From Austropuccinia psidii (Eukaryota; Basidiomycota; Pucciniomycetes; Pucciniales; Sphaerophragmiaceae): DNA of 64,000 bases. Shown piece by piece: positions 13,467 to 56,616 of this stretch (the stretch's first letter is position 1; every line of letters begins with the position of its first letter). The position numbers and the translations under genes are program-made. Where the stretch lies: contig JALGQZ010000011.1 in assembly GCA_023105745.1 (NCBI GenBank), positions 45,662,698 through 45,726,697 on the forward strand. The letters run 5' to 3'. The notes under the pieces were generated by a model. The model searched no databases. It had not been told where the DNA came from and was given only the letters and a program-made list of their open reading frames with translations.

Positions 13467-15482
13467 TGTAAGGTTTGACTATGAAACAATAAGTAAAAAT
13501 TACTAATTTATTACTTATTGTACTCTGAATGTCCTTATAAATTGAGTAAATAAGATTAAAAATATAATAATAATAAATAATTATTATTATTATGGCGTAA
13601 AATAATTATATTATTAAATAAATATAATAATATAATTTATATTATGAAAATATAATATAATAAATAAATATATTAATATAAAATAATTAATATATTAAAA
13701 AGCTCTTTATTATTGTTACCAACAAATAATAAAGGCGTAAAAAATTGTTTTTTATTAATAAAAAACAATTAATAACAATAATATTACTAATATTAAAGTT
13801 ATGAATTAATATAAATACTATTTATATTAATTAAAGAGTTATTAAGAGAGTAATAATAGAGAAATTATTATAATAAGAGAGAATAACCTACTTTTAACAC
13901 TTAATATAATAATTTTGAAGTATTTTACGCCAAAAAATATAAATACAACTTTTTCAAATTGTATTTACAATAAAAATAAAGAAAATTACAAATTATTCTG
14001 GATTTTTACGTGGAAATGAGTTTTAGAGAGATTTTTAACAAAAACAATTAAATAAATGATTTAATCACGTCAAAATAGATGATTATAGCAAGGTGGTCTT
14101 TGGTCTTTAATAATATAATGCTTTTATATATAAAGAATAAAGAAAATTACCTTTTGATTTAATTGATTTAATGTTTTTGATGCGTCTGAGGGGAAAAAAG
14201 AGCTCTATTTATAGTAAATACCTCCCTCCTAGAGTCCAACAGGCTTCTAGTAGACGTGTACTGACCATATCCACTGGAATTGATCAATATTTTAAGGTTT
14301 GAGGGTGATTACATCATGATCAAACCATCTTACATCATTATTGCACCATTATTTAAAGTTATCACTGTAACTTTAAGTTTGATGACATCAGAGGCTTGGC
14401 AGAACCCCAAATTTCGTGGATTTTATTAGTTTTAATCATAAACTAATAGTATTCACCAATTTTATCACTCTTGTGACTGTTAAACTTAATTTAAGGTTAC
14501 AGTAGGTGACCATAACTGCTCAATTTAAGCTCAAACTTTGATCTTCAATAACTTTTAAGATTTACACGCTACAGCAATTCAGAGAGTGAATTCTGATAGC
14601 CTGGCATAACCTTATTATGCTGCCAAGAGCTTATCATTACATCATCAAAACTCTAATTTTGGTGATTTTTCTTGTAACTCATCTTTTCTGTCGAAATTCA
14701 ATATTTTAAGCTTCAAACCTTGATTTCAGGGGTTATACCCTGAATTTAATAATAAAAATTACATCATTCTTCACGAATGAACTAGTAGAATCCAACTGTA
14801 TACTTTTTTTTAAGTTTGGATCACTTTCACAACAAAGTGGTCAACAGCTCTGTTGATTTTTATCAATATTTCATCATAGGTTTTAACCTTGTTTATAATT
14901 TGTAAAATAAAGTTCATATCTGTGTTCTTACAGTAATTACGTGGTAACTTTATTTTTGGTTCATCATTCTATCATGTATAGTTTAGAAGATATTAGCTAT
15001 GATCCTTGAATATATGCGTTGACCAAAAAAGTGCATATATTCAGGATAATTCCTTAAGTATTGACTTTGAGAATTAGCTTATTAATTGTTTTATGTGTGG
15101 ATTTTTATGGGGAATCCACTGGTACAATTTATTTTACATGTTGTTTCATTGGTCTCTGAGATAAATAGGATTTTATGGTTTTTATAAGGTATTATACCTT
15201 ATAATTCATTAAATATTGACTTCACAGATATGCCATAAAAATGGTATATGTGTATTTTTCCATGAGGAATCCAATGGTATAATTTATTTTACATGTTTCA
15301 TTCATTGGTTTTTAAGTTAAACCAATTTTTGTGTTAATTTATGGTATTTTTTGTATATTTAAGTAATTAATTTTAATGTATAATTATTCTAAGTAATTTT
15401 AGTATAATTATATTAAAGGTATAATTATTCTTAATCTTTTTGTGACCTTATTGGGTATGTGGTCATATCTCAAAGGCTCACA
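13467..15482 (-). repeat. Element A 3' LTR (left copy)
   Basis: This copy is 2,016 bp. It has a TATA box (TATAAATAG, 14,205-14,213), the donor-like AAAAG|GTAATT a few dozen bases beyond, and a perfect 28-bp palindrome at 13,743-13,770. Compared with the right copy it carries an extra 17 bp near 15,405-15,425, next to a repeated TATAATTAT. Confidence 0.95.
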
Positions 15483-15600: not shown

Positions 15601-18600
15601 TTATTGTTCAGGTTTTCTTTCATGTCTGAACCTTCTTAGTAGTTTATCAGCATTTGTTATATCTTTCTCAAGTAGCCATTCATCTTCTTGAGTTGAATTT
15701 CTATACCTTACAAGGTATTCTCTTTCTTTTTTGTTTCTTGTCCTTCTTTCTTTAAGGACTTTTACTATTTTCTTTTCCTCTCCTTCTTCCAAGGGGGGAA
15801 TCTCAAGTGGGGGTTTATTTCTTAGTGGAAATAACTCTTTGTCACTTGAACTGTAAGGTTTTATCAGACTTACAGGGAAAGTTGGGTGTTTGTTCATTAG
15901 TTCACCTGTGAGTTCCAATTGCACAGCATTGGGTCCATGAAGTGCTTTTATCATAAATGGTCCTGCAAAGGAATCTTTCAATTTCTTTGGGCCTTTTATG
16001 TTATTGAAATTAAGGGTTGATACTAAAACCAAGTCCCCTATTTTGAAATCAGGTGGCTTATGACTTTTATCCCATCTTTCTTTTGCATATTTAAAAGAAT
16101 CTTGCATGCATCTGTTTGCATGGTGTCTTGCTTTGTCAAGCATTATCTTGAAGCTGCTTGCTGTTGGATGTATATCCACTAAGTCCTTTTTGAGGGTATC
16201 ATAAGGAAGTCTTGGATTCCAACCTTTCTCTAGCATTGCTGGTGTTTTGCCAGTAGAAGAATGGATTGATGTCTTATATGCCAATTCAAGTGCTGGTATT
16301 AGTGTACACCAATCATGGGTAAAACCATCAGAATCTTTGAATTCTAGCCCATAAGCACAGAATCTTCTGATCATATCCTCTAGGGTCTGTATCATTCTTT
16401 CTGCTAAACCATCAGTTTGAGGATGATAAGCTGTTGAGAATGATAACTTTGTCCCAAACAGGTTATGGAGATTTGTCCATAATGCTGAAGTGAACTTTGG
16501 GTCTCTGTCACTTATAATATTTTGGAATAAGCCTGTATGGCTAATGACTTTATTCCATATCATTATGGCTGTATCCATAGCTGTGTCATCTTTATGACAT
16601 GGTAAGAACATGGGAGTTTTGCTGTATCTGTCAACTAGCACTAGGCATGCATTATAACTCCTGTCTCCTCCTGGAGGTAAGGCTGTTACCCAATCCATAT
16701 GAGCTATTTCCCATGGGGATTTTGGTTCTTGGATTTGGATCATCATTCCAAATTTCTTTCCTGTGGCTCTGTTGGCTTTTTGACATCTGTCACAGGTCTG
16801 GCAGTACTCTGCAACATCTTTCTTCCAATTTGGCCACCAAGAACAGGTTTTCACCCTCTCTAGTGTCCTATCTTCTGAGAGATGTCCAGATGCAACACTA
16901 TCATGACACTCATGTAAAATGGTGTTTATTAGTGTTCTGTCTGTTAAGGCCATAACACATGTATGTTTTGTTCTATGGTAAAGGATTCCATCAAGGAGGT
17001 GAAATCTTCCTTCATCATATGCCTTTTTCCATATTTCATCTAGTTTTGATGAAAGTGATGGATCTTTGCAGTCTTTCATTAGAAGTTGGCTTAAGATATG
17101 GCAATTTTTGTCTGTCTTATAGCTTTCTTTAACTTGGTTAAAGAATTCTGTGCCAATGTCTGTAACACATATTCCTTCTATATGGTGCTCTTCTTGTGGT
17201 ACCCATGCTGGATTGTCAGGGGTATTTGCTAGAGCCCATCTGCTGAGACCATCTGCATTTTTGTGAATATTTCCAGATTTATGAACAATAGTCATATTTC
17301 CTCTATATTCTTGGATAGCAATTTGCCATCTTAGCATATGTCTGTTTGGAGTCTTCATATTTAATAGTGATTTCACAGCATTACAGTCTGTGATTACATC
17401 AAATACTGTGCCATCCAAATAATAATGCAATTTTTCTAAAGCCCACACTAGGCATAAGCATTCCATTTGGCTTGCTCCATACCTTGCTTCTGTTGGCTTT
17501 ATTTGCCTTGAAATGAAACAAATTGGTCCTTCCACTGGTTTATCATTGATAATTTGTGTTTGGTGAAGTGCAGCACCTAGTCCTTCTCCACAAGCATCAA
17601 TGTACAGTTTGAAGGGTAGTTTCCAATCTGGCATTAGGAGAAATGGGGCATTTGTTAAGGAATTTTTCAATTCTTCATATGCCTTGACTCTTTCTTCTGT
17701 CATCTCATAGACTGTTTGTTGGTCACATAGCTTATACAAGGATTTAGCAATCTTTGCAAAGTCCTTTATATGCTGTCTATAGTAACCAGCAAATCCTAGA
17801 AATGATTGCATTTCTTTTTTGGTTTGAGGCATTGGTTTAAGTAGTACTGCTGCTACTTTATTTTTGTCTATGCCTAGACTAAGTCCAGATACCACATGTC
17901 CTAGTGCTTTTAATTCACTATATGCAAAATGACACTTTTTCAAGGAAATTTTCATATTCACTTGAACTATTTTCTGTAGTACCCTTTCTAGTCTTGTAAG
18001 GTGATTTTCCCAAGTTTCTGAGCAAACTATAATATCATCAATATAGATAATTAACCATCCTTCTGATAATTCTTCAGGAAATATGGTATTCATCATTCTT
18101 TGATAATGGGAAGGTGCATTTTTTATTCCAAATGGCATTCTTAAGTATTCAAAAATCCCACAATGGACTATTATTCTTAGTAGTTTCTTGGCATTGTCTG
18201 TTAAGACATTTTGATGAAAACCCTCAAGAGCATCCATAGCTGTGATGAACTTAGCTTGTGACAATTGGGTCAATGTCTCATGGATTCTGGGTATTGGATA
18301 TCTGTCTGGAATGGTATAGGTATTCAGGGCTCTGAAGTCTCCTACCATCCTTGATTTTCCATTATGCCAAGTTATAATGACAGGTGTAGTAACTTCTACT
18401 TGTTCATTATGTCCAACCTTTCTTAATACTCCAAGGTCCATTAATTCTTTAATGTGTACCTCTAAGGCTTCTCTAGCTCTTGGACTGGCTGGATAAGCAG
18501 GTCTTCTTAATAAAGGTGGGTAAGGCTTTTCTACATTAAGAATTATATCCACTTCATGTCCAATTATGGCACCTAGTGGCTCTTTGTCAGTTGCAAAGGC

Positions 18601-21399
18601 ATTTTTATACTTAAATAAGAGGTCAATCAATTTTTCTTTCATTTTTTCTGTTAATTCTTGATTGAATTCTGCCTCTTTAAGTTGATCAGATATAAAAATT
18701 TCTTTTTCTGGAATTTTTTCTTCCTTCTTAATAACTGTGATTTGTTTTTTGTTATTTAAGAAGCCAAACTTTTGTCTTTTGTTATCTCCTATGGTAAAAT
18801 ATCTGTCTTTTTGGTTGGAGATATCTATACCATAGATTGATAAGTAGTCATTCCCAAGTATGAAATGATTACTAGTACAGTTGTCCATTACTACAAACTC
18901 TACTTTAATTCTAACACATTGTGAGGGATGAGGAAAAATTAGTGTTAAATCAATTATTCCAAGGGGCTTCATGCTCTCACTTGCACTACTAAATTTGACA
19001 CCTTGTATTGGCATAAGTTTTTCTTGCCAATTTGGGACAATGGTTTTTAAATAACTTTTGCCAACACAAGTGCAATATGCTCCTGTATCCAAGTTAACTT
19101 TTCCTTCCTGGTTATCAACCATAACAATACTTATACTTGATTTTCCAGCTGTATATCCCATTCCTCTTGCAGGTTTGGTTCTATACATTTTGGCATCTTG
19201 TATGTTTGTCAGGTTTGTGTCAGATGTTCCAACTTGTGGTAAGTTTGAATTAACATCCAGTACTTCATAAATTAAGTCAATATTATTAATTTGTGCATTA
19301 ATTATATTGATTTCATCACTTTCAGAGCTTTCTGACTCTTCTGTCTCTTTTTCAGAGTCAGATTCCTCTTCTTTGTCATTGTGGCTTTCTGTTTCCACAA
19401 TTTCATGAATTTTTGCTTTTTTAAGGCAATTATTGGCTAAGTGTCCAATACCTCCACATTTATGGCATTTTCTTTGCTCATTATTGTTGGATGTATTGGG
19501 CTTAAAGGATTCTTTTGGTTTATCTTTTCTGATAAATGGTTTATTTGGGCTTTTAATGTCCAATTTTTTCCAAGTCCTGCCAATTTTTGTTCTTGTCACT
19601 ATATCTTCTAGTGCATTTATATACTCTTCTGTGGAGCATGGTTCTATACATCTGCTTCTTAGGGCATGTTCTAGTTCCCCTCCACATTTTTTAAGTATTT
19701 TCATATGCACCATCTTCTGTGACATTTCTGGGTATAGTGCATTAAGTCTTTCAACTTGTTTTAAGAACCAAGTTAAAGGTTTGTCTTTCTCTGGGTCAAA
19801 GAAAGAGTTTTCAAATGCATTTTCTATCTTATACCTCCAGGCATCATTTGCCCACTTGGTGATTATTTCTTGTTTCCACCAAGACCAGGTATTTTTACCA
19901 TTTGTTTGTCTTATGCCATAATACCATCTTTTTGCAGATTTCTCAAACAAAGAATGTAATCTTGCAGTGATTAATTCATCTGGTATGGCATAATCTTCTT
20001 GTAACATGTCAATTGTTTTAATGAATGACATGTGGTCATATTCACCTTCTCCTGTGAATGTTGGCCATTCTTTCAGTTGAGGTGCTTCCTTCATTAAGAC
20101 TTGGTTATTATCTTGGTGACTCAAGTCTGTTATGAAAGGATTTGACAATTCCTCTTTTGTTTTAACAGGGCTTCTTATATGAGAAAATGGTGTTGATAAC
20201 TTTGGCATATTTAAATTAGCCTCATTAATTTTATCCATTTTTTCAGTGATAAGTCTTATTTCACTCTGAATATCATCTTTCAGATGCATTCTTGCTTCAT
20301 CACTTTTTTCCACATGGTCCAAAAGTAATTTTTGGTGTGATGAAGTCTTTTCTTCAAATTTTTCTACAGAAATACTTAATTTATTCAATTTTTCTGTAAG
20401 ATTGTCAATACTCACATCATAATTGATTGTCAAAGTTTTGTCTTTGATATCTTTTATGTATTTATACAATTCTTGTTGTCCTTGTATTAATTTTTGAGTA
20501 TTGTCAATTAAATTCTTTGGTTTATTATTTTCAACAATAAACTTAATGTTGTCAATTTCTTTCTTGTTTTGCACAACAATTTTTGTTAAAGAAGATAAAT
20601 TGTTATTTATTTCTTGTAGTGATAATAAACTGTCTTTAATTTCTTTTAGAGGTAATATACTATTTTTAATTTCTGTTAAAGTATTTACAACATCTTTGGA
20701 CAAGGTTATTTCTTTGGGAAATGAGGTTGTCTCATTCTTTGCTCTTCCTTGTCCATGAATTCCATCAAGGTTCTGGCCATGTTGAAAACATTGTCCATGG
20801 CATCCTTTTGGATTCTTGGGATTCTGTAGCTTGGGGAATATGGTTTCCTCCAATGCTTTTTCTTGTTCTTCTTCCCTTCTTGGGGAAGTGGGTTGGCTTG
20901 GGGCTTGCTGGTAGAAGCTACTGGGGCTTCTTCCTTGGTTGCCTCCCTCTTTTTGGCATGGTAATCCTTGATTTTTTTGATTTGAGGTTTGGATGACAGT
21001 GGATTCCATCCATTGGAGTATTTCACTATCTCCTCCTCTTTGAGGAACTTTTTCAGGATGTGCCAGGAGTTCATCACTCCTTGGTGTATTTGAGGCAACA
21101 TTTCCCAATCTTTGTCCTTGTACACTGTGCAATACTGCTTGTACTGGCTCATGTAGATGTCTATTTGAGCCCTCTGAATGTGATTTGTACCTGTTTGAGT
21201 TACTCATACTTAGTTCTAATTCAGGCTCAGATATCATGGGCATTTCTGGGACTTGCCTTTGGGATAAGGCACTTCCTTGTGTGGATTCTGTTCCACTGGG
21301 GATATTGCCCTTTCTTTTCCCTTTTGAGGGATCAATTCTACCTCTGAGTCCAGCTCCATCTGATTGGATGGAGTATTGGGAACCTCTTCTGGTAGTCAT
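15601..21399 (-). CDS. Gag-pol polyprotein of element A (1,932 aa)
   Basis: The single frame encodes a retrotransposon capsid-like domain at residues ~440-620 ([15 protein letters not shown]), a CCHC zinc knuckle near 645-657 ([14 protein letters not shown]), and an aspartic protease with DTGA at ~771. Reverse transcriptase follows with YIDD at ~1119, RNase H with [14 protein letters not shown] at ~1262, and integrase with an HHCC region ~1497-1545 and catalytic Asp ~1569, Asp ~1632 and Glu ~1667. A C-terminal chromodomain-like segment occupies ~1870-1925 ([15 protein letters not shown]), which is thought to guide integration to chromatin in chromoviruses. No frameshift or catalytic loss is seen. 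The first ~226 codons overlap ORF1 in another frame, and the ATG lies within ORF1 intron 1. Gag-pol could therefore start at this ATG on unspliced RNA, or be entered by -1 frameshifting from ORF1. Confidence 0.95.
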
Positions 21400-21625
21400 A
21401 ATTAAAGAATAAGAAAAAATAAAAGTATTTTAGAATGAAAATTCTTTTATGGCAATTATAAAAAGAGGTGCTCACCTTCAGAGTCTTGAATGGTGGGTCC
21501 TGGAAAGTCTAATTTCTTAGCTTTCTTTCTTTTGGTGATAACTGGTGTTGGAGAACTTTGACAAGTTTCTTCCACCAACCTCTCAACAGTAGCTTGGTTA
21601 TCTTCTGTTGGGTTATCTTCAAACA
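20706..21625 (-). CDS. ORF1: spliced leader protein in a different frame from gag-pol (proposed)
   Basis: Three exons form one frame: 21,476-21,625, 21,257-21,388 and 20,706-21,190. Intron 1 (21,389-21,475) is GTGAGC...ACCAG and intron 2 (21,191-21,256) is a GC-AG intron (GCAAGT...ACAG). Both are phase 1. Intron 2 carries the only stops in this frame. The product is about 255 aa from exon 1 on. It has an acidic start (FEDNPTEDN), a Lys-rich patch, a central block (QYK...[15 protein letters not shown]) and a conserved end ([11 protein letters not shown]). Splice sites, phases and protein blocks recur in B and D, and the final motif in C. The last two exons overlap gag-pol out of frame. Exon 1 begins after a TAG acceptor with a split GTG codon, so translation must start upstream, probably in the LTR. 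It could be a Gag N-terminal part fused by frameshifting, or an accessory protein. Function unknown. Confidence 0.6.
20712..20718 (-). promoter_or_regulatory. Candidate -1 ribosomal frameshift site CCCAAAG
   Basis: In the ORF1 frame the bases read TTC CCA AAG AAA TAA, that is a canonical X XXY YYZ heptamer three bases before the stop codon. Slipping back one base at this point continues as CCC AAA GAA, exactly the gag-pol frame. Element B keeps the same heptamer and stop at 43,918-43,924. I cannot assess downstream RNA structure by eye. Confidence 0.5.
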
Positions 21626-21945
21626 CTAAAAAAGACAAATAAATATAAGTCTTTATATAAGAAGTGTTATTTTTGGCAAGATATGGCAATTTTCCACGTA
21701 GAAATTGCTTTATATCTTAAAAAATTGAAATAAAATAAAGAAATGAATAAAAAATGAATAAAAATAACTTTTTTTATTGGTTTTTAATATTTTTTAATAT
21801 TTTTTATGTATTTTTTATTTTTTAAAGAATAAAATAAAAAAGAATATGATTCTTATAAAATTAAATTATAATAAAATTATTTTTAATTTATAAAATATCT
21901 TTTTTAATCACTAGAGTCACTCAAAGAAAGTTCTTGCAAGTCTAA

Positions 21946-21967
21946 GGATGTGAAAAACCACGTGTAA
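21946..21967 (-). other. Conserved 22-nt block in the retrotransposon leader (A)
   Basis: TTACACGTGGTTTTTCACATCC on the minus strand lies between the PBS and ORF1 exon 1. Near-identical copies are at 45,095-45,116 (B) and about 56,805-56,826 (D), although the leader around them is otherwise AT-rich and divergent. It may be a cis-acting RNA signal such as a packaging or dimerisation element; this is inference. Confidence 0.45.
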
Positions 21968-22107
21968 GACAGTACAATTGCTTTCCAAATGCCTCAATAG
22001 CTTTTAAAATCAATAAAATATAAAATTATTATATAATTTATGATTATAAATATAATTTATTATTGGATAAACCCAAATAGAATCTTTTTAAAGGTCTTTT
22101 AAGTAAA

Positions 22108-22128
22108 TATCACGGCCAGGCCCCCAAA
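22108..22128 (-). other. Putative primer binding site of element A
   Basis: Directly after the LTR end comes TTTGGGGGCCTGGCCGTGA on the minus strand. The same TTTGG...GCC(T/C)(G/A)GCC(A/G)TG core follows the corresponding LTR in elements B, C and D. TGG at +3 is the usual start of a tRNA-primed site. TGGGGG would require a primer tRNA with discriminator C, as in eukaryotic tRNA-Pro, but I cannot extend that match with confidence. Confidence 0.55.
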
Positions 22129-24127
22129 TGTAAGGTTTGACTATGAAACAATAAGTAAAAATTACTAATTTATTACTTATTGTACTCTGAATGTCCTTAT
22201 AAATTGAGTAAATAAGATTAAAAATATAATAATAATAAATAATTATTATTATTATGGCGTAAAATAATTATATTATTAAATAAATATAATAATATAATTT
22301 ATATTATGAAAATATAATATAATAAATAAATATATTAATATAAAATAATTAATATATTAAAAAGCTCTTTATTATTGTTACCAACAAATAATAAAGGCGT
22401 AAAAAATTGTTTTTTATTAATAAAAAACAATTAATAACAATAATATTACTAATATTAAAGTTATGAATTAATATAAATACTATTTATATTAATTAAAGAG
22501 TTATTAAGAGAGTAATAATAGAGAAATTATTATAATAAGAGAGAATAACCTACTTTTAACACTTAATATAATAATTTTGAAGTATTTTACGCCAAAAAAT
22601 ATAAATACAACTTTTTCAAATTGTATTTACAATAAAAATAAAGAAAATTACAAATTATTCTGGATTTTTACGTGGAAATGAGTTTTAGAGAGATTTTTAA
22701 CAAAAACAATTAAATAAATGATTTAATCACGTCAAAATAGATGATTATAGCAAGGTGGTCTTTGGTCTTTAATAATATAATGCTTTTATATATAAAGAAT
22801 AAAGAAAATTACCTTTTGATTTAATTGATTTAATGTTTTTGATGCGTCTGAGGGGAAAAAAGAGCTCTATTTATAGTAAATACCTCCCTCCTAGAGTCCA
22901 ACAGGCTTCTAGTAGACGTGTACTGATCATATCCACTGGAATTGATCAATATTTTAAGGTTTGAGGGTGATTACATCATGATCAAACCATCTTACATCAT
23001 TATTGCACCATTATTTAAAGTTATCACTGTAACTTTAAGTTTGATGACATCAGAGGCTTGGCAGAACCCCAAATTTCGTGGATTTTATTAGTTTTAATCA
23101 TAAACTAATAGTATTCACCAATTTTATCACTCTTGTGACTGTTAAACTTAATTTAAGGTTACAGTAGGTGACCATAACTGCTCAATTTAAGCTCAAACTT
23201 TGATCTTCAATAACTTTTAAGATTTACACGCTACAGCAATTCAGAGAGTGAATTCTGATAGCCTGGCATAACCTTATTATGCTGCCAAGAGCTTATCATT
23301 ACATCATCAAAACTCTAATTTTGGTGATTTTTCTTGTAACTCATCTTTTCTGTCGAAATTCAATATTTTAAGCTTCAAACCTTGATTTCAGGGGTTATAC
23401 CCTGAATTTAATAATAAAAATTACATCATTCTTCACGAATGAACTAGTAGAATCCAACTGTATACTTTTTTTTAAGTTTGGATCACTTTCACAACAAAGT
23501 GGTCAACAGCTCTGTTGATTTTTATCAATATTTCATCATAGGTTTTAACCTTGTTTATAATTTGTAAAATAAAGTTCATATCTGTGTTCTTACAGTAATT
23601 ACGTGGTAACTTTATTTTTGGTTCATCATTCTATCATGTATAGTTTAGAAGATATTAGCTATGATCCTTGAATATATGCGTTGACCAAAAAAGTGCATAT
23701 ATTCAGGATAATTCCTTAAGTATTGACTTTGAGAATTAGCTTATTAATTGTTTTATGTGTGGAGTTTTATGGGGAATCCACTGGTAAAATTTATTTCACA
23801 TGTTGTTTCATTGGTTTCTGAGATAAATAGGATTTTATGGTTTTTATAAGGTATTATACCTTATAATTCATTAAATATTGACTTCACAGATATGCCATAA
23901 AAATGGTATATGTGTATTTTTCCATGAGGAATCCAATGGTATAATTTATTTTACATGTTTTATTCATTGGTTTTTAAGTTAAACCAATTTTTGTGTTAAT
24001 TTATGGTATTTTTTGTATATTTAAGTAATTAATTTTAATGTATAATTATTCTAAGTAATTTTAGTATAATTATTCTTAATCTTTTTGTGACCTTATTGGG
24101 TATGTGGTCATATCTCAAAGGCTCACA
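22129..24127 (-). repeat. Element A 5' LTR (right copy, drives transcription)
   Basis: This copy is 1,999 bp. It is the upstream LTR in sense, so U3 is about 22,876-24,127 and R-U5 about 22,129-22,850. The 28-bp palindrome lies at 22,405-22,432. An inverted repeat CAATAAGTAA...TTACTTATTG sits near the U5 end. Confidence 0.95.
22867..22875 (-). promoter_or_regulatory. TATA box in the element A 5' LTR
   Basis: TATAAATAG on the minus strand, present at the equivalent place in both A LTRs (14,205-14,213) and both B LTRs (37,456-37,464 and 45,909-45,917). A start site about 30 nt downstream would fall in the C/T-rich stretch just before a short exon-like segment that ends AAAAG|GTAATT at 22,813. 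Confidence 0.7.
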
Positions 24128-43912: not shown

Positions 43913-44802
43913 TATTTCTTTGGGAAATGAGATTGTCTCATTCTTTTCTCCTCCTTGTCCTTGAATTCCATCAAGGTTCTGGCCATGTTTAAGACATTGT
44001 CCATGGCATCTTTTTGGATTTTTGGAATTATGTAACTTGGGGAATATGGTTTTCTCCAGTTCTTTTTCTTGTTCTTCTTCCCTTCTTGGGGAAGTGGGCT
44101 TGCTTGGGGCTTGCTGGTAGAAGCTACTGGGGCTTTTTCCTCAGTTGGCTTTCTCTTTTTGGAATGGTACTCTTTGATCTTTTTAATTTGAGGTTTGGAT
44201 GATAGTGGATTCCATCAATTTGAGTATCTCACTATTTCCTCCTCTTTGAGGAGCTTTTTTAGGATGAGCCAGGAGTTCTTCACTCCTTGGTGTATTTGTG
44301 GCAACATTTCCCAGTCCTTGTACTTGTACAATGTGTAGTACTGTTTGTAATGGCTCATGTAAATGTCTATCTGAGCCCTCTGGATGTGATTTGTACCTAT
44401 TCGAGTCACTAATACTTAGTTCTAACTCTGGTTCAGATATCATGGGCATTTCCGGGACTTACCTTTGTAATGAGGCACTTTCTTGTGTGGATTCTGTTCC
44501 ACTGGGGATTTTTCCCTTTCTTTTCCATTTTGAGGGGTTAATTATACCTCTGAGTCCAGCTCCATCTGATTGGATTGAGTATTGGTACCCTCTTCTGGTA
44601 GTCATAATTCAAGAAATAAAAAATAAAAAGATTTCAGCACAAGAATTTCTTTTTATGGCAATTTATAAAGGAGGTACCCACCTTCAGAGTCCTGAAAAGT
44701 CTAATTTCTTAGATTTCTTTTTCTTAATGAGAATTGGTGCTGGAGAACTTGGGCAAGTTTCTTCTACCAATCCTTCAGCACTGGTTTGATTGTCTTCAAA
44801 CA
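43913..44802 (-). pseudogene. Decayed ORF1 leader frame of element B
   Basis: Exon 1 is 44,692-44,802, after TTTTAG and ending GAAG|GTGGGT. Intron 1 ends at the same ACCAG as in A. Exon 2 now has a stop (after [10 protein letters not shown]). Intron 2 (44,397-44,462, 66 bp) keeps a canonical AAAG|GTAAGT donor where A has GC. Exon 3 contains [18 protein letters not shown] and runs toward the CCCAAAG heptamer at 43,918-43,924 and its TAA. Exon 1 is 39 bp (13 codons) shorter than in A, so the phase is preserved. Confidence 0.6.
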
Positions 44803-45278: not shown

Positions 45279-47144
45279 TGTAAGGTCTTACTACAAAGCA
45301 ATAAGTAAAAATTACTAATATTTTACTTATTGTACTCTGAATGTCCTTATAAATAGAATAAATAAGATAAAAATCATTATAATGATAAAGAATTATTATA
45401 ATTATGGCTTAAAAATAATCATATTAATATTTGATAATTGATATATTTAAAAGCTCTTTATTATTGTTACAAAAAAATAATAAAGGCATAAAAAATTGTT
45501 TTTTATTAATAAAAAACATTAATAACTGAAATATTACTAATATTAAAGCTATATATTAATATAAATATTATTTATATTAATGGAAGAATTATTAATACCA
45601 ATAATAGAAAATAGCCTACTTTTGACGCTTAATAGAATAATTTTGGAAGAATTTATGCCATATAATTTAAATAAAACTGATTCTAATTGTATTTAGAAAT
45701 AGAAATATAAGAAATTATGAATTTTCTTGATTTTATGTGGAAAGGAGTACAATTGAAGTAATCACATCAAAATAATTATTATAATAAAGGTAGCTTTGTG
45801 TATTTGGTAATATAAGAGATCTATATATAAAGAATAAAAGATTTTACCTTTTGATTTAATTGTTTGATTGTTTTGATGCATCTGTGGGAAAATAGAGTAA
45901 AAAGAGCTCTATTTATAGTAAATACCTCCCTTATAGAGTCCAGTAGGCTTCTAGTAGATTTTTACTGATGGTATCCACTGGAAATGATCAGTATTTTAAG
46001 GCTTAGTGATGATTATGTCATGATCAAACCATCTTATCCCATTATTATGCCATTATTTAGAGTTATCACTATAAATCTAAGTTTGCTGACATAATAGGCT
46101 TGGAATAAGCCTAAATTTTGCGTATTTTATTAGTATTGATCATAATCTAATAGTATTAACCAATCTCATCACTTTGATAACTGTTAAGCTTAAAATAAGA
46201 TTACAGTGGGTGATATTAAATGATCAGTTTTGAGCTTAAACTCTGATTATGAATAACATTTGAGTTATACATGCTACAAATATTATGGGAGTGAATTCTG
46301 ATAGCTTGGCATTTCTTCATTGAACCGCCAAGAGAATTTCATTACATAATCAAAACTCTAATTTTGATTATTTTTCTTGTAACTCATCTTTTCTGTTGAA
46401 ATTCAATATTTTAAACCTCAAACCTTGACTTCAAGGGGTTATAGATTGAATATTATGATGTAAATTACATCATTCTTCACATATGAGCTAGTAGAATCTG
46501 ACTATTCACTTTTTTAAGTTTGGACCACTTTCACAACAAAGTGGTCAACAGCTCCAGTGATTTTGTTCAATAAAACCTTACAAGCTATAACCTTGTTTAT
46601 AACTTGTAAAATAAAGTTCATATCTGTGTTTCTAAAGTAATTACATAGTGACTTCATTTTTGGTTCAACTCTCTATCATGTATATTCCAAAAGATATTAG
46701 CTAAAAACCATGAATATATGCATTGACCAAAAAAATGCATATATTCAGCTTAATTCCTTAAGTATTGACTTTAGAGAATTTTCATAAGATTGTTTTATGT
46801 GTAGTGCTTTATGGGGAATCCAACGGTAGAATTTATTTCACATGTTGTTCCATTGGATTCTGAGTTGAAGAAGATTTTGTGTCTTTTTTAGGGTATTATT
46901 ACTTATTCCTCAGTAATTATTGACTTTTCACATATTCCATAAAAATCACATATGTGTATTTTACCATGAGAAATCTAATGGTGTAATTATATTTACATGT
47001 TTACTCATTAGATTCTGAGTTAATACAGATTTGGTACCTATTTATGGTATTTTCACTAGTTGTAAGATAATTATTATGAGTATAATTACTATAGAAATTT
47101 CTTGTGGCCTTTTTGGATATGTGGGCATATCTCAAAGGCTCACA
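45279..47144 (-). repeat. Element B 5' LTR (right copy) with a possible start exon
   Basis: This copy is 1,866 bp. A TATA box lies at 45,909-45,917. About 28 nt downstream an ATG at 45,881 opens an 11-codon frame ending AAAAG|GTAAAA at 45,848, in phase 1. It joins in frame to ORF1 exon 1 of the same element (44,692-44,802). Confidence 0.88.
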
Positions 47145-55169: not shown

Positions 55170-56616
55170 TTGGCTTTGCCTTTGCCCTTGCCTTTATGGT
55201 TCTTGAAACCTTTCTCCTTCTTTTGAGGTCCTTTGGGATTTTCTTTGGACACTTCTGGAGCTGGTTTGGAGCTGGTAGATGCCACTGGGCCTTCTGTCTC
55301 CAAAGCTGGAGTCATTTCCAACTCCTTCTTCTGGTATATGGATAAAAGACTTTGGTTCTTCAACCAATTCTCCTATCTTTTTGACTTTGTCTTTGAAATA
55401 CAATGGGCTACAACCTCCTAAGAGTTCTATGGTCTTCTCCTGACCCAGAAAGCTCTTGATGTGTAAGTAGGAGTTCATGGCCCCCTGCCAAAGGCTTGGG
55501 CATATTTCCCATTCCCCTTCTTTGGCTGCTCTGAACCAATTTTTGTATTGGCATTGATATATTTCTATTGCTTCCACTTGAAAATGGTTCAGCCCTGGAA
55601 ATATTATCATGAATCAGTTCAGGCTCAGAATTCACATCAAAATCTGTGGGTACAGACCTTGGGGAATGGGGGGCAACTCTGGCATTCTCCAAATGTGTCT
55701 TTCTTGAGGAAGACTTGGCACTTCTGGATTTGGTATTTCCTCTTCCTTCTCCACATCCATCTGGTTGGACTGGATAGTTGCTTCCATTCCTGGTATGCAC
55801 CACTTTCTCGTCAATTTAAAAATAAAAGGCAAAAATATAAGATAAAATACACACCTTTTGGTGGTAATTTATTCTTTTCTGAGTCAAATAAGGTGCCTCT
55901 TTTAGCAATTTGCACCTCAATACTGTCTCCTCTCCAAAGCTGGAGTCATTTCCAACTCCTTCTTCTGGTATATGGATAAAAGACTGTTGTTCTTCAACCA
56001 ATTCTTTATCTTTTGGACTTTGTCTTTGAAAGACAATGGGCTACAACCTCCTAAGAGCTCTATGGTCTTCTCCTGACCCAGAAACCTCTTGATGTGTAAG
56101 TAGGAGTTCATGGCCCCCTGCCAAAGGCTTGGGCATATTTTCCACTCCTCTTCTTTGGCTTCTCTGGACTAATTTTTGTATTGGAATTGATAAATTGCTA
56201 TTTCTGCCACTTGAAAGTGGTTCAGCCCTTAAGATATTATCATTAATTAGTCCAGATTCAGAATTCATGTCAACTTTTGTGGGTACAGACCTTGGGGAAT
56301 GGAGGCAACTATGGCATCCTCCAGATGTGTCTTTCTTGAGGAAGATTTGACTCTTTCCACTTCCTTGTTCAAATCCATCTGGTTGGACTGAATAGTTGCT
56401 TTCACTTCTGGTATGCACCATTTTCACGTCAATTCAAGAGAAAAAGTGAAATAAAAGGACAGAACCACACACCTTTTGGTGGTAATTTAGCTTGTTCTGT
56501 TCTGAATAAAGTGCCTCTTTTAGCAATTTGCACTTCAATGCTCTTTTCAGATTCTGGACTAGTAATATATCTCTTACTGAGCTTATTACCAGCTGCACTG
56601 TATCTTATTAAAGACA
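55055..56616 (-). pseudogene. ORF1 leader frame of element D, with a duplicated 5' region
   Basis: Exon 1 is 56,473-56,616 (after CTAG, ending AAAG|GTGTGT). Exon 2 in the outer copy begins after ACCAG at 56,407 (SNQMDLNKEVER); the inner copy has SNQMDVEKEEE. Intron 2 of the inner copy is 55,595-55,657 (63 bp, GTCTGT...TTCCAG). Exon 3 reads LNHFQVEAIEIYQCQYKNW, then AMNSYLHIKSFL, then, after a one-base frame change near 55,365, the end block YRIPKLG...[11 protein letters not shown]. Positions and phases equal those of element A. A TAA ends the frame at 55,055, before the place where A has CCCAAAG. Confidence 0.6.
55296..56545. repeat. Tandem duplication (~620-bp unit) in the 5' coding region of element D
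   Basis: Two diverged copies, about 55,296-55,928 and 55,929-56,545, each contain an exon 1 end (CACACCTTTTGGTGG on plus), an MVHTR gag start (55,803 and 56,421) and the LLGGCSPL...LEMTPALE region. Corresponding sites are 618 bp apart in the middle. The inner gag start has changed from ATG to GTG. Confidence 0.8.

Follow-up and report, generated by a model that had tools for sequence, protein, structure and literature searches.

Regulators of the human T-cell leukaemia virus (HTLV) Rex type are small basic proteins made from spliced RNA. In the Ty3/Gypsy element Cer1 of C. elegans, the accessory protein CERV is described as made from a spliced mRNA and as needed for the export of the unspliced RNA (PMC10309623, PMC3315495). 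Gypsy elements have greatly enlarged rust genomes. The genome of the myrtle rust fungus Austropuccinia psidii is reported to consist of more than 90% transposable elements, mostly of the Gypsy type (PMC8063080). The stretch analysed here, hereafter the window, comprises 64,000 nucleotides (nt) of contig JALGQZ010000011.1 (positions 45,662,698 to 45,726,697) within the 1.015-Gb assembly of this species, the one genome analysed; it carries on its minus strand a long terminal repeat (LTR) retrotransposon, element A, whose LTRs flank one open gag-pol frame, together with the related copies B, C, and D. Very probably, the families of A and D carry a gene, ORF1, that is overprinted on the first ~230 gag codons and read only from spliced RNA, with splicing as the switch. 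No report of such a gene in rusts was found in the open-licence literature.

Introns of ORF1 and its overlap with gag

A sequence-only reading of the window had proposed that two introns join three exons of element A into a frame of about 255 codons that differs from that of gag-pol, and this arrangement is confirmed (Table 1). With introns of 87 and 66 nt the three exons fall into one raw frame, the stops of that frame lie within the introns (all those between exons 2 and 3 inside intron 2, as proposed), and, provided that an A precedes exon 1, ORF1 comprises 255 codons plus the stop, out of frame with gag-pol. Every A locus retrieved with protein queries (30 + 30) has GTGAGC as the donor of intron 1; intron 2 proves on inspection to be of the GC-AG type (AAAG|GCAAGT, the bar marking the splice boundary), with GTAAGT at the same place in copy B. 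Because the stops fall in the introns and intron-less genomic copies exist, ORF1 would be readable only after splicing, and it appears to be a spliced retroelement accessory gene whose product is encoded only by spliced RNA.

Genomic DNA supports splicing at introns 1 and 2. Junction searches employed patterns across the joined exons with mismatches allowed and the backwards pattern as a control, which gave 0 matches in every case. The exon 1/2 join of family A (<=2 mismatches) has 4 genomic matches, and its exon 2/3 join (<=3 mismatches) has 2, both in elements that also show the exon 1/2 join; the exon 1/2 join of family D has 8 matches (3 exact and 5 with 1-3 mismatches). Alignment covered 3 of the 4 places in A (the remaining one has 2 mismatches) and 2 of the 8 in D, and all five aligned copies lack intron 1 to the base, four of them intron 2 as well: both introns are missing exactly from L070 and L072 in A and from L075 and L076 in D, and intron 1 only from L069 in A. 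The splicing proposed at these junctions is thus borne out by genomic copies in both families. Moreover, L070 holds the whole 255-amino-acid ORF1 in unbroken genomic DNA, and L075 and L076 hold an unbroken ORF1 of 286 amino acids, in each case with the initial A of the ATG assumed. L070 is nearest to intron-bearing copies, with 20 differences in 2,026 positions, and the closest loci of L072 differ from it at 48-49 of ~2,000; this closeness indicates that the introns were lost and not absent originally, with at least two separate losses by this reading. The intron-less copies look like reverse-transcribed spliced RNAs, and L070 and L072 keep the primer-site motif that a retrotransposed RNA needs; L069 gave no exact match to this motif, although its leader aligns.

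The distribution of changes over codon positions indicates that ORF1 is constrained in exons 1 and 3. Counts are given as ORF1 positions 3/1/2 unless gag is named, and sites are taken as independent. Between A and B, exon 3 changes amount to 28/12/8, that is, 28 of 48 at ORF1 position 3. Among 31 rows of family A (30 loci picked by gag, plus the element of the window; variants seen at least twice), variants amount to 4/1/1 in exon 1, 1/0/0 in exon 2, and 10/1/3 in exon 3, so that 15 of 21 are changes at the third position of ORF1 codons (P 0.0004, without adjustment for shared descent); in exon 3, singletons are spread about evenly (13/12/9). Exon 3 counts from an earlier set of 30 A loci are not used as evidence, because those loci had been selected for identity to the ORF1 protein. 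For family D, phase and frame tests relied on 8 loci hand-picked from 150 listed and gave 10/1/3 in exon 1, 1/0/1 in exon 2, and 19/2/3 in the portion of exon 3 outside the query (the initial portion, 8/0/2, lay within the query and is excluded from the counts); exon 1 (10/14) and the remainder of exon 3 (19/24) together place 29 of 38 variants at ORF1 position 3. Codon usage compared with pol (exon 3: ORF1 frame -0.05, gag 0.21, third frame 0.13) does not discriminate, as in the pol control the off-frame value is 0.19 against 0.22 in frame.

That ORF1 is a chance open frame and its introns are ordinary deletions is scarcely credible and already contradicted. Given the gag amino acids, exon 3 would be open in the ORF1 frame by chance with P 0.01-0.03, so that openness alone is weak evidence; against chance stand GT/GC-AG breakpoints that are exact and lie at matching sites in the two families, the excess of changes at ORF1 third positions, and the 39% identity between the A and D versions of ORF1 over exons 2-3 (E 3e-49).

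Conversely, the gag frame is open over the same bases. When the ORF1 amino acids were fixed and synonymous codons shuffled, exon 3 of A, which has 0 stops in the gag frame, was expected to have 5.6 (12.0 with pol codon usage; P <=0.0002), and exon 3 of D has 0-1 stops against 6.1-8.1 expected (P <=0.001; 7/8 loci testable), while the third frame of D has 10-11, as expected; the reverse test, that of ORF1 given gag, is the weaker one. Between the gag ATG and the end of the stretch, the gag frame is stop-free in 4/8 D loci and interrupted once in 2, with 5 and 6 stops in two frame-shifted copies; in the 31 A rows, ORF1 is open in 27 and the gag part is stop-free in 26. Changes downstream, in bases that code for gag only, number 40/26/74 at gag positions 1/2/3 between A and B. 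It could be argued that only ORF1 is translated across the overlap, Gag beginning downstream and the open gag frame upstream being a matter of chance: the changes in exon 3 track the codons of ORF1 and not those of gag, being distributed 28/12/8 over gag positions 1/2/3, and A and D are less alike in the gag frame (29% over 160 columns) than in ORF1. This explanation is nevertheless improbable, as the gag frame is stop-free against expectation in A and in half of the D loci, the gag AUG is the first AUG, and 7 of the 9 changes between A and B in intron 2 lie at gag third positions. Because ORF1 shows a third-position excess and the gag frame is open against expectation, both frames appear to be kept by selection over the same bases as an overlapping gene pair, the ORF1 signal lying in exons 1 and 3.

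Some observations weigh against a maintained ORF1. Exon 2 shows no third-position excess between A and B (2/5/6, i.e. 2/13 at ORF1 position 3), and the exon 1 counts of the same comparison are weak (10/6/5, 10/21 at position 3, P 0.12). ORF1 ends after 123 amino acids in L072 and after 101 in L069, where intron 2 is retained; among the 8 D loci, frameshifts occur in L061 and L064, exon 1 of L063 is interrupted by a stop, and L062 no longer has the terminal stop codon. The refuting condition set by that reading, constraint limited to the gag-pol frame, fails for exons 1 and 3, and exon 2 lacks an ORF1 phase signal. Of the dual-coded leader protein attributed to splicing in rust Gypsy elements, dual coding and splicing are supported in A. 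psidii; a function as a leader protein and the extension to rust Gypsy elements in general are not part of this support.

The equivalents proposed for B and D are present: intron 2 of B aligns to that of A, and both introns occur at matching places in 8 D-family loci. Copy B is decayed, with 14 columns missing at the end of exon 1 and stops in both frames. The last protein block said to be shared with C, VFQMARTMMEI, is found there, the rest of C being too decayed to read. In copy D, a tandem duplication of ~633 bp covers the region of the ORF1 and gag starts (window 55,374-56,305, minus strand), its two units being 90% alike over 299 nt.

Leader and start codons

In both families, the gag AUG lies inside intron 1: in A it opens the last 11 nt (ATGACTACCAG|) and in 8/8 D loci the last 14. 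Removal of intron 1 therefore removes the start of Gag. Transcription of element A is expected to start ~30 nt downstream of the TATA box, and the 1,439 nt from there to the gag ATG contain no ATG, whereas 2,000 first-order Markov resamplings give 15 on average and never fewer than 3, and the opposite strand has 22. Between the TATA box and 21,359, the gag ATG (21,399) is the sole ATG and the ORF1 frame has none. From 22,100 to 21,400, 25 of the 31 A rows are free of ATG and 6 have one; the rule is looser in D, where the interval from donor 0 to the start of gag contains 1 to 4 ATGs in the eight loci.

Exon 1 of A lacks an ATG, yet its variation is coding-like in the ORF1 frame. In A, C, and D, TG comes directly after the acceptor that precedes this exon (AG|TGTTTGAA, AG|TGTCTGAA, and AG|TGTCTTTA, respectively), and AG|TG is kept in 8/8 aligned D loci and in 10/10 of a further D set, which was found by that motif. 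Upstream, a candidate donor 0 reads AAAA|GTAGGT in 29/30 A loci (L001-L030) and AAAA|GTAAGT in 1/30; in D it reads ATTA|GTGAGT in 9/10 loci and is the sole GTGAGT before exon 1 in the stretch examined. Because these donors end in A and the acceptor is AG|TG, the splice would join A|TG and excise the primer site in both families, which suggests a further intron, intron 0, that creates the ORF1 start codon A|UG.

These features allow a mechanism to be proposed. In the unspliced RNA, the AUG-free leader would take ribosomes to the gag AUG and thus to Gag-Pol; in the spliced RNA, loss of intron 1 would take the gag AUG out and loss of intron 2 the stops, leading to ORF1, whose start would be the codon created by removal of intron 0 or, where that intron is retained, the AUG of exon 2. 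Splicing would thereby switch between two exclusive products. In its full form, the proposal is a two-way start-codon switch at one promoter, in which splicing of intron 0 assembles the ORF1 AUG from the final A of a U5 exon and the TG that opens exon 1 and takes out the primer site, splicing of intron 1 eliminates the gag AUG, and scanning can obey the switch because the 1.4-kb leader holds no AUG, the choice being between Gag-Pol and a dual-coded regulator of the Rev/CERV kind; we give this full form a little less than an even chance.

Two results in family A tell against intron 0. A junction search for a genomic fossil of its splice returned 0, the 4 near-matches being single changes in the normal acceptor; RNA spliced at intron 0 could not easily be reverse-transcribed, which weakens the missing fossil as counter-evidence. 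Moreover, the best donor of the A leader by a simple score is that at 22,812 (AAG|GTAATT, 5.5 vs 5.0 for 22,553), which would give GTG and not ATG. The missing fossil also speaks for a simpler arrangement, in which ORF1 is real and starts at the AUG of exon 2, the first one once intron 1 is out, exon 1 being a non-coding 5' exon with no split start codon; in addition, 94 of the 120 listed D models deposited for A. psidii MF-1 begin in exon 2 (text pattern). We consider this start unlikely, since exon 1 variants prefer ORF1 position 3 (D 10/14; A 4/6), D exon 1 has an in-frame length difference of 15 nt, AG|TG is preserved in the eight D loci as well as in A and C, and partial deposited models begin exactly past AG|TG, as FEDN or SLIK.

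A coding start of exon 0 within the LTR was considered and rejected, as A has no ATG there and carries an extra base, and the 3' LTR of B reads TGA in that frame. In the 5' LTR of B (window 45,847-45,890, minus strand), an ATG stands just past the TATA box; it shares its frame with an exon that ends in AAAAG|GTAA and could be joined to exon 1. In the D-family copy L061 (340-480), the primer-site-like motif TTTGGGGGCCTGGCCGTG occurs twice, ~100 nt apart.

Element A, its family and deposited homologues

The LTRs of element A and the order of its domains, reverse transcriptase, RNase H, and integrase, mark it as a Ty3/Gypsy LTR retrotransposon: Pfam places RVT_1 at 1023-1179, RT_RNaseH at 1268-1375, Integrase_H2C2 at 1497-1554, and rve at 1571-1670 of gag-pol. 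The Gag zinc knuckle zf-CCHC scores 20.7 bits (cut-off 20.8), and Chromo, the C-terminal chromodomain of chromoviruses, 14.2 bits (cut-off 25.1). The motif adjoining the 5' LTR is presumably the primer-binding site. A 267-amino-acid gag stretch of family A is identical in 144/144 scored places, the best 144 of 49,468 candidates, many with frames of 1,942 codons; the family (window 15,601-21,429, minus strand) is a very recent burst.

Table 1. Features of element A and of copies B and D, in window coordinates
Feature	Positions	Strand	Basis
5' LTR, element A	22129..24073	-	direct repeat with 13,467-15,411; outer end approximate
3' LTR, element A	13467..15411	-	direct repeat with 5' LTR; outer end approximate
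TATA box TATAAATA in LTR	22868..22875	-	sequence
Predicted exon 0 (AUG-free leader), ends in A before donor GTAGGT	22554..22845	-	splice inferred from donors
Predicted intron 0 with primer-site-like motif; removal would join A|TG	21626..22553	-	acceptor AG|TGTYT common to A, C, D; inferred
TTTGGGGGCCTGGCC, adjoining LTR, at primer-binding-site position	22114..22128	-	read directly from sequence
ORF1 exon 1	21476..21625	-	A and D phase tests; partial models in the database start just within it
Intron 1 (GT-AG, 87 nt)	21389..21475	-	missing to the base in genomic copies L069, L070, L072
gag-pol start codon, first ATG after TATA box, lost with intron 1	21397..21399	-	sequence
gag-pol from its ATG	15601..21399	-	part of 1,942-codon open frame starting 21,429
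ORF1 exon 2	21257..21388	-	open frame; seen joined in intron-less copies
First ATG once intron 1 is out, ORF1 frame	21357..21359	-	sequence; same Met aligns in D
Intron 2 (GC-AG, 66 nt)	21191..21256	-	missing to the base in L070, L072
ORF1 exon 3 including stop codon	20706..21190	-	phase tests; homologues deposited for A. psidii MF-1
Intron 2, copy B, donor GTAAGT	44397..44462	-	aligned to A
Intron 2, copy D (second unit)	55595..55657	-	alignment with D loci
gag ATG, copy D (first unit)	56419..56421	-	first base 14 nt from intron 1 end

Deposited A. psidii "hypothetical proteins" include many ORF1 copies. ORF1 exon 3 is matched by 753 database proteins, of which the best 120 are all hypothetical proteins of A. 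psidii MF-1, and no homologue from another species occurs among the matches listed (best 120 of 753, 23/23, and best 120 of 158), all from MF-1. By text patterns, the exon 2-3 join is found in 48/120 and the exon 1-2 join in 4/120 of the listed D models, and the two A lists together have the exon 1-2 join in 7/143 and the exon 2-3 join in 1/143; most gene predictors skip GC donors. The MF-1 models are gene predictions and not RNA evidence, and some may come from intron-less copies. In two of them, P0123 and P0124, exon 2 seems to continue at another acceptor, 17 nt into exon 3, by which the gag frame is resumed; as read from the proteins only, this may be a splice form that fuses ORF1 to Gag.

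The ORF1 protein and its known parallels

The predicted ORF1 protein, of ~255-286 amino acids, is basic (isoelectric point 9.2 and 9.4 for the A and D proteins) and probably mostly helical, its structure models being all-helical at low confidence (pLDDT 61.6 and 60.3). A further point on the contrary side, which makes the function of ORF1 a guess, is that no match in fold or sequence was found: there is no Pfam match at cut-off, the best PDB sequence match has E 0.89, and Foldseek gives no significant match for these low-confidence models. By analogy, the most likely single role, tentatively held, would be that of an accessory regulator of the element's own RNA, acting in export or packaging. 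About as likely, and doubtful in its own right, is a structural or Gag-like companion, such as a matrix or assembly factor, and not an RNA-export regulator: the overlap with the gag N-terminus, the all-helical models, and the basic charge would suit it, and the want of a significant fold match, together with a need for splicing that to our knowledge would be unusual for a structural Gag product, speaks against it without being decisive. Should the two families indeed depend on a spliced accessory gene, RNA regulation of the retrovirus-like kind would extend to fungal LTR elements, and these would be a further setting in which overlapping genes arise. Since copies are plentiful, both intron-bearing and intron-less, selection on the two frames and the use of splice sites can be measured directly.

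Among known systems, ORF1, taken as an RNA regulator, would share with HIV (human immunodeficiency virus) Rev and HTLV Rex-type proteins that a small basic protein comes from spliced RNA while the unspliced RNA encodes Gag-Pol; it differs in that ORF1 overlaps gag, and no homology was found or expected. Ogre ORF1 is an example of the additional ORFs (open reading frames) of plant LTR retrotransposons. Such ORFs, Ogre ORF1 included, resemble ORF1 as extra conserved frames beside gag-pol, but are described as lying up- or downstream of it, in a review whose available text contains neither "overlap" nor "intron" (PMC7264820). In BARE1, a short alternative intron near gag likewise sorts RNAs by product, although there splicing is described as yielding an RNA for Gag alone, with no overlapping second gene in the account given (PMC3735527). 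Closest is CERV, which is also described as an accessory protein that a Gypsy element makes from a spliced mRNA; one of its exons lies outside the gag frame, and consensus splice sites must be skipped to make the gag-pol RNA; its function is experimentally supported, whereas a function of ORF1 is proposed, and the likeness is by description and not by sequence comparison (PMC10309623, PMC3315495). As described, CERV has 517 amino acids and its exons 1-3 are in the gag frame, whereas every overlap codon of ORF1 is out of that frame, and in ORF1, whose host is a fungus, splicing deletes the gag AUG.

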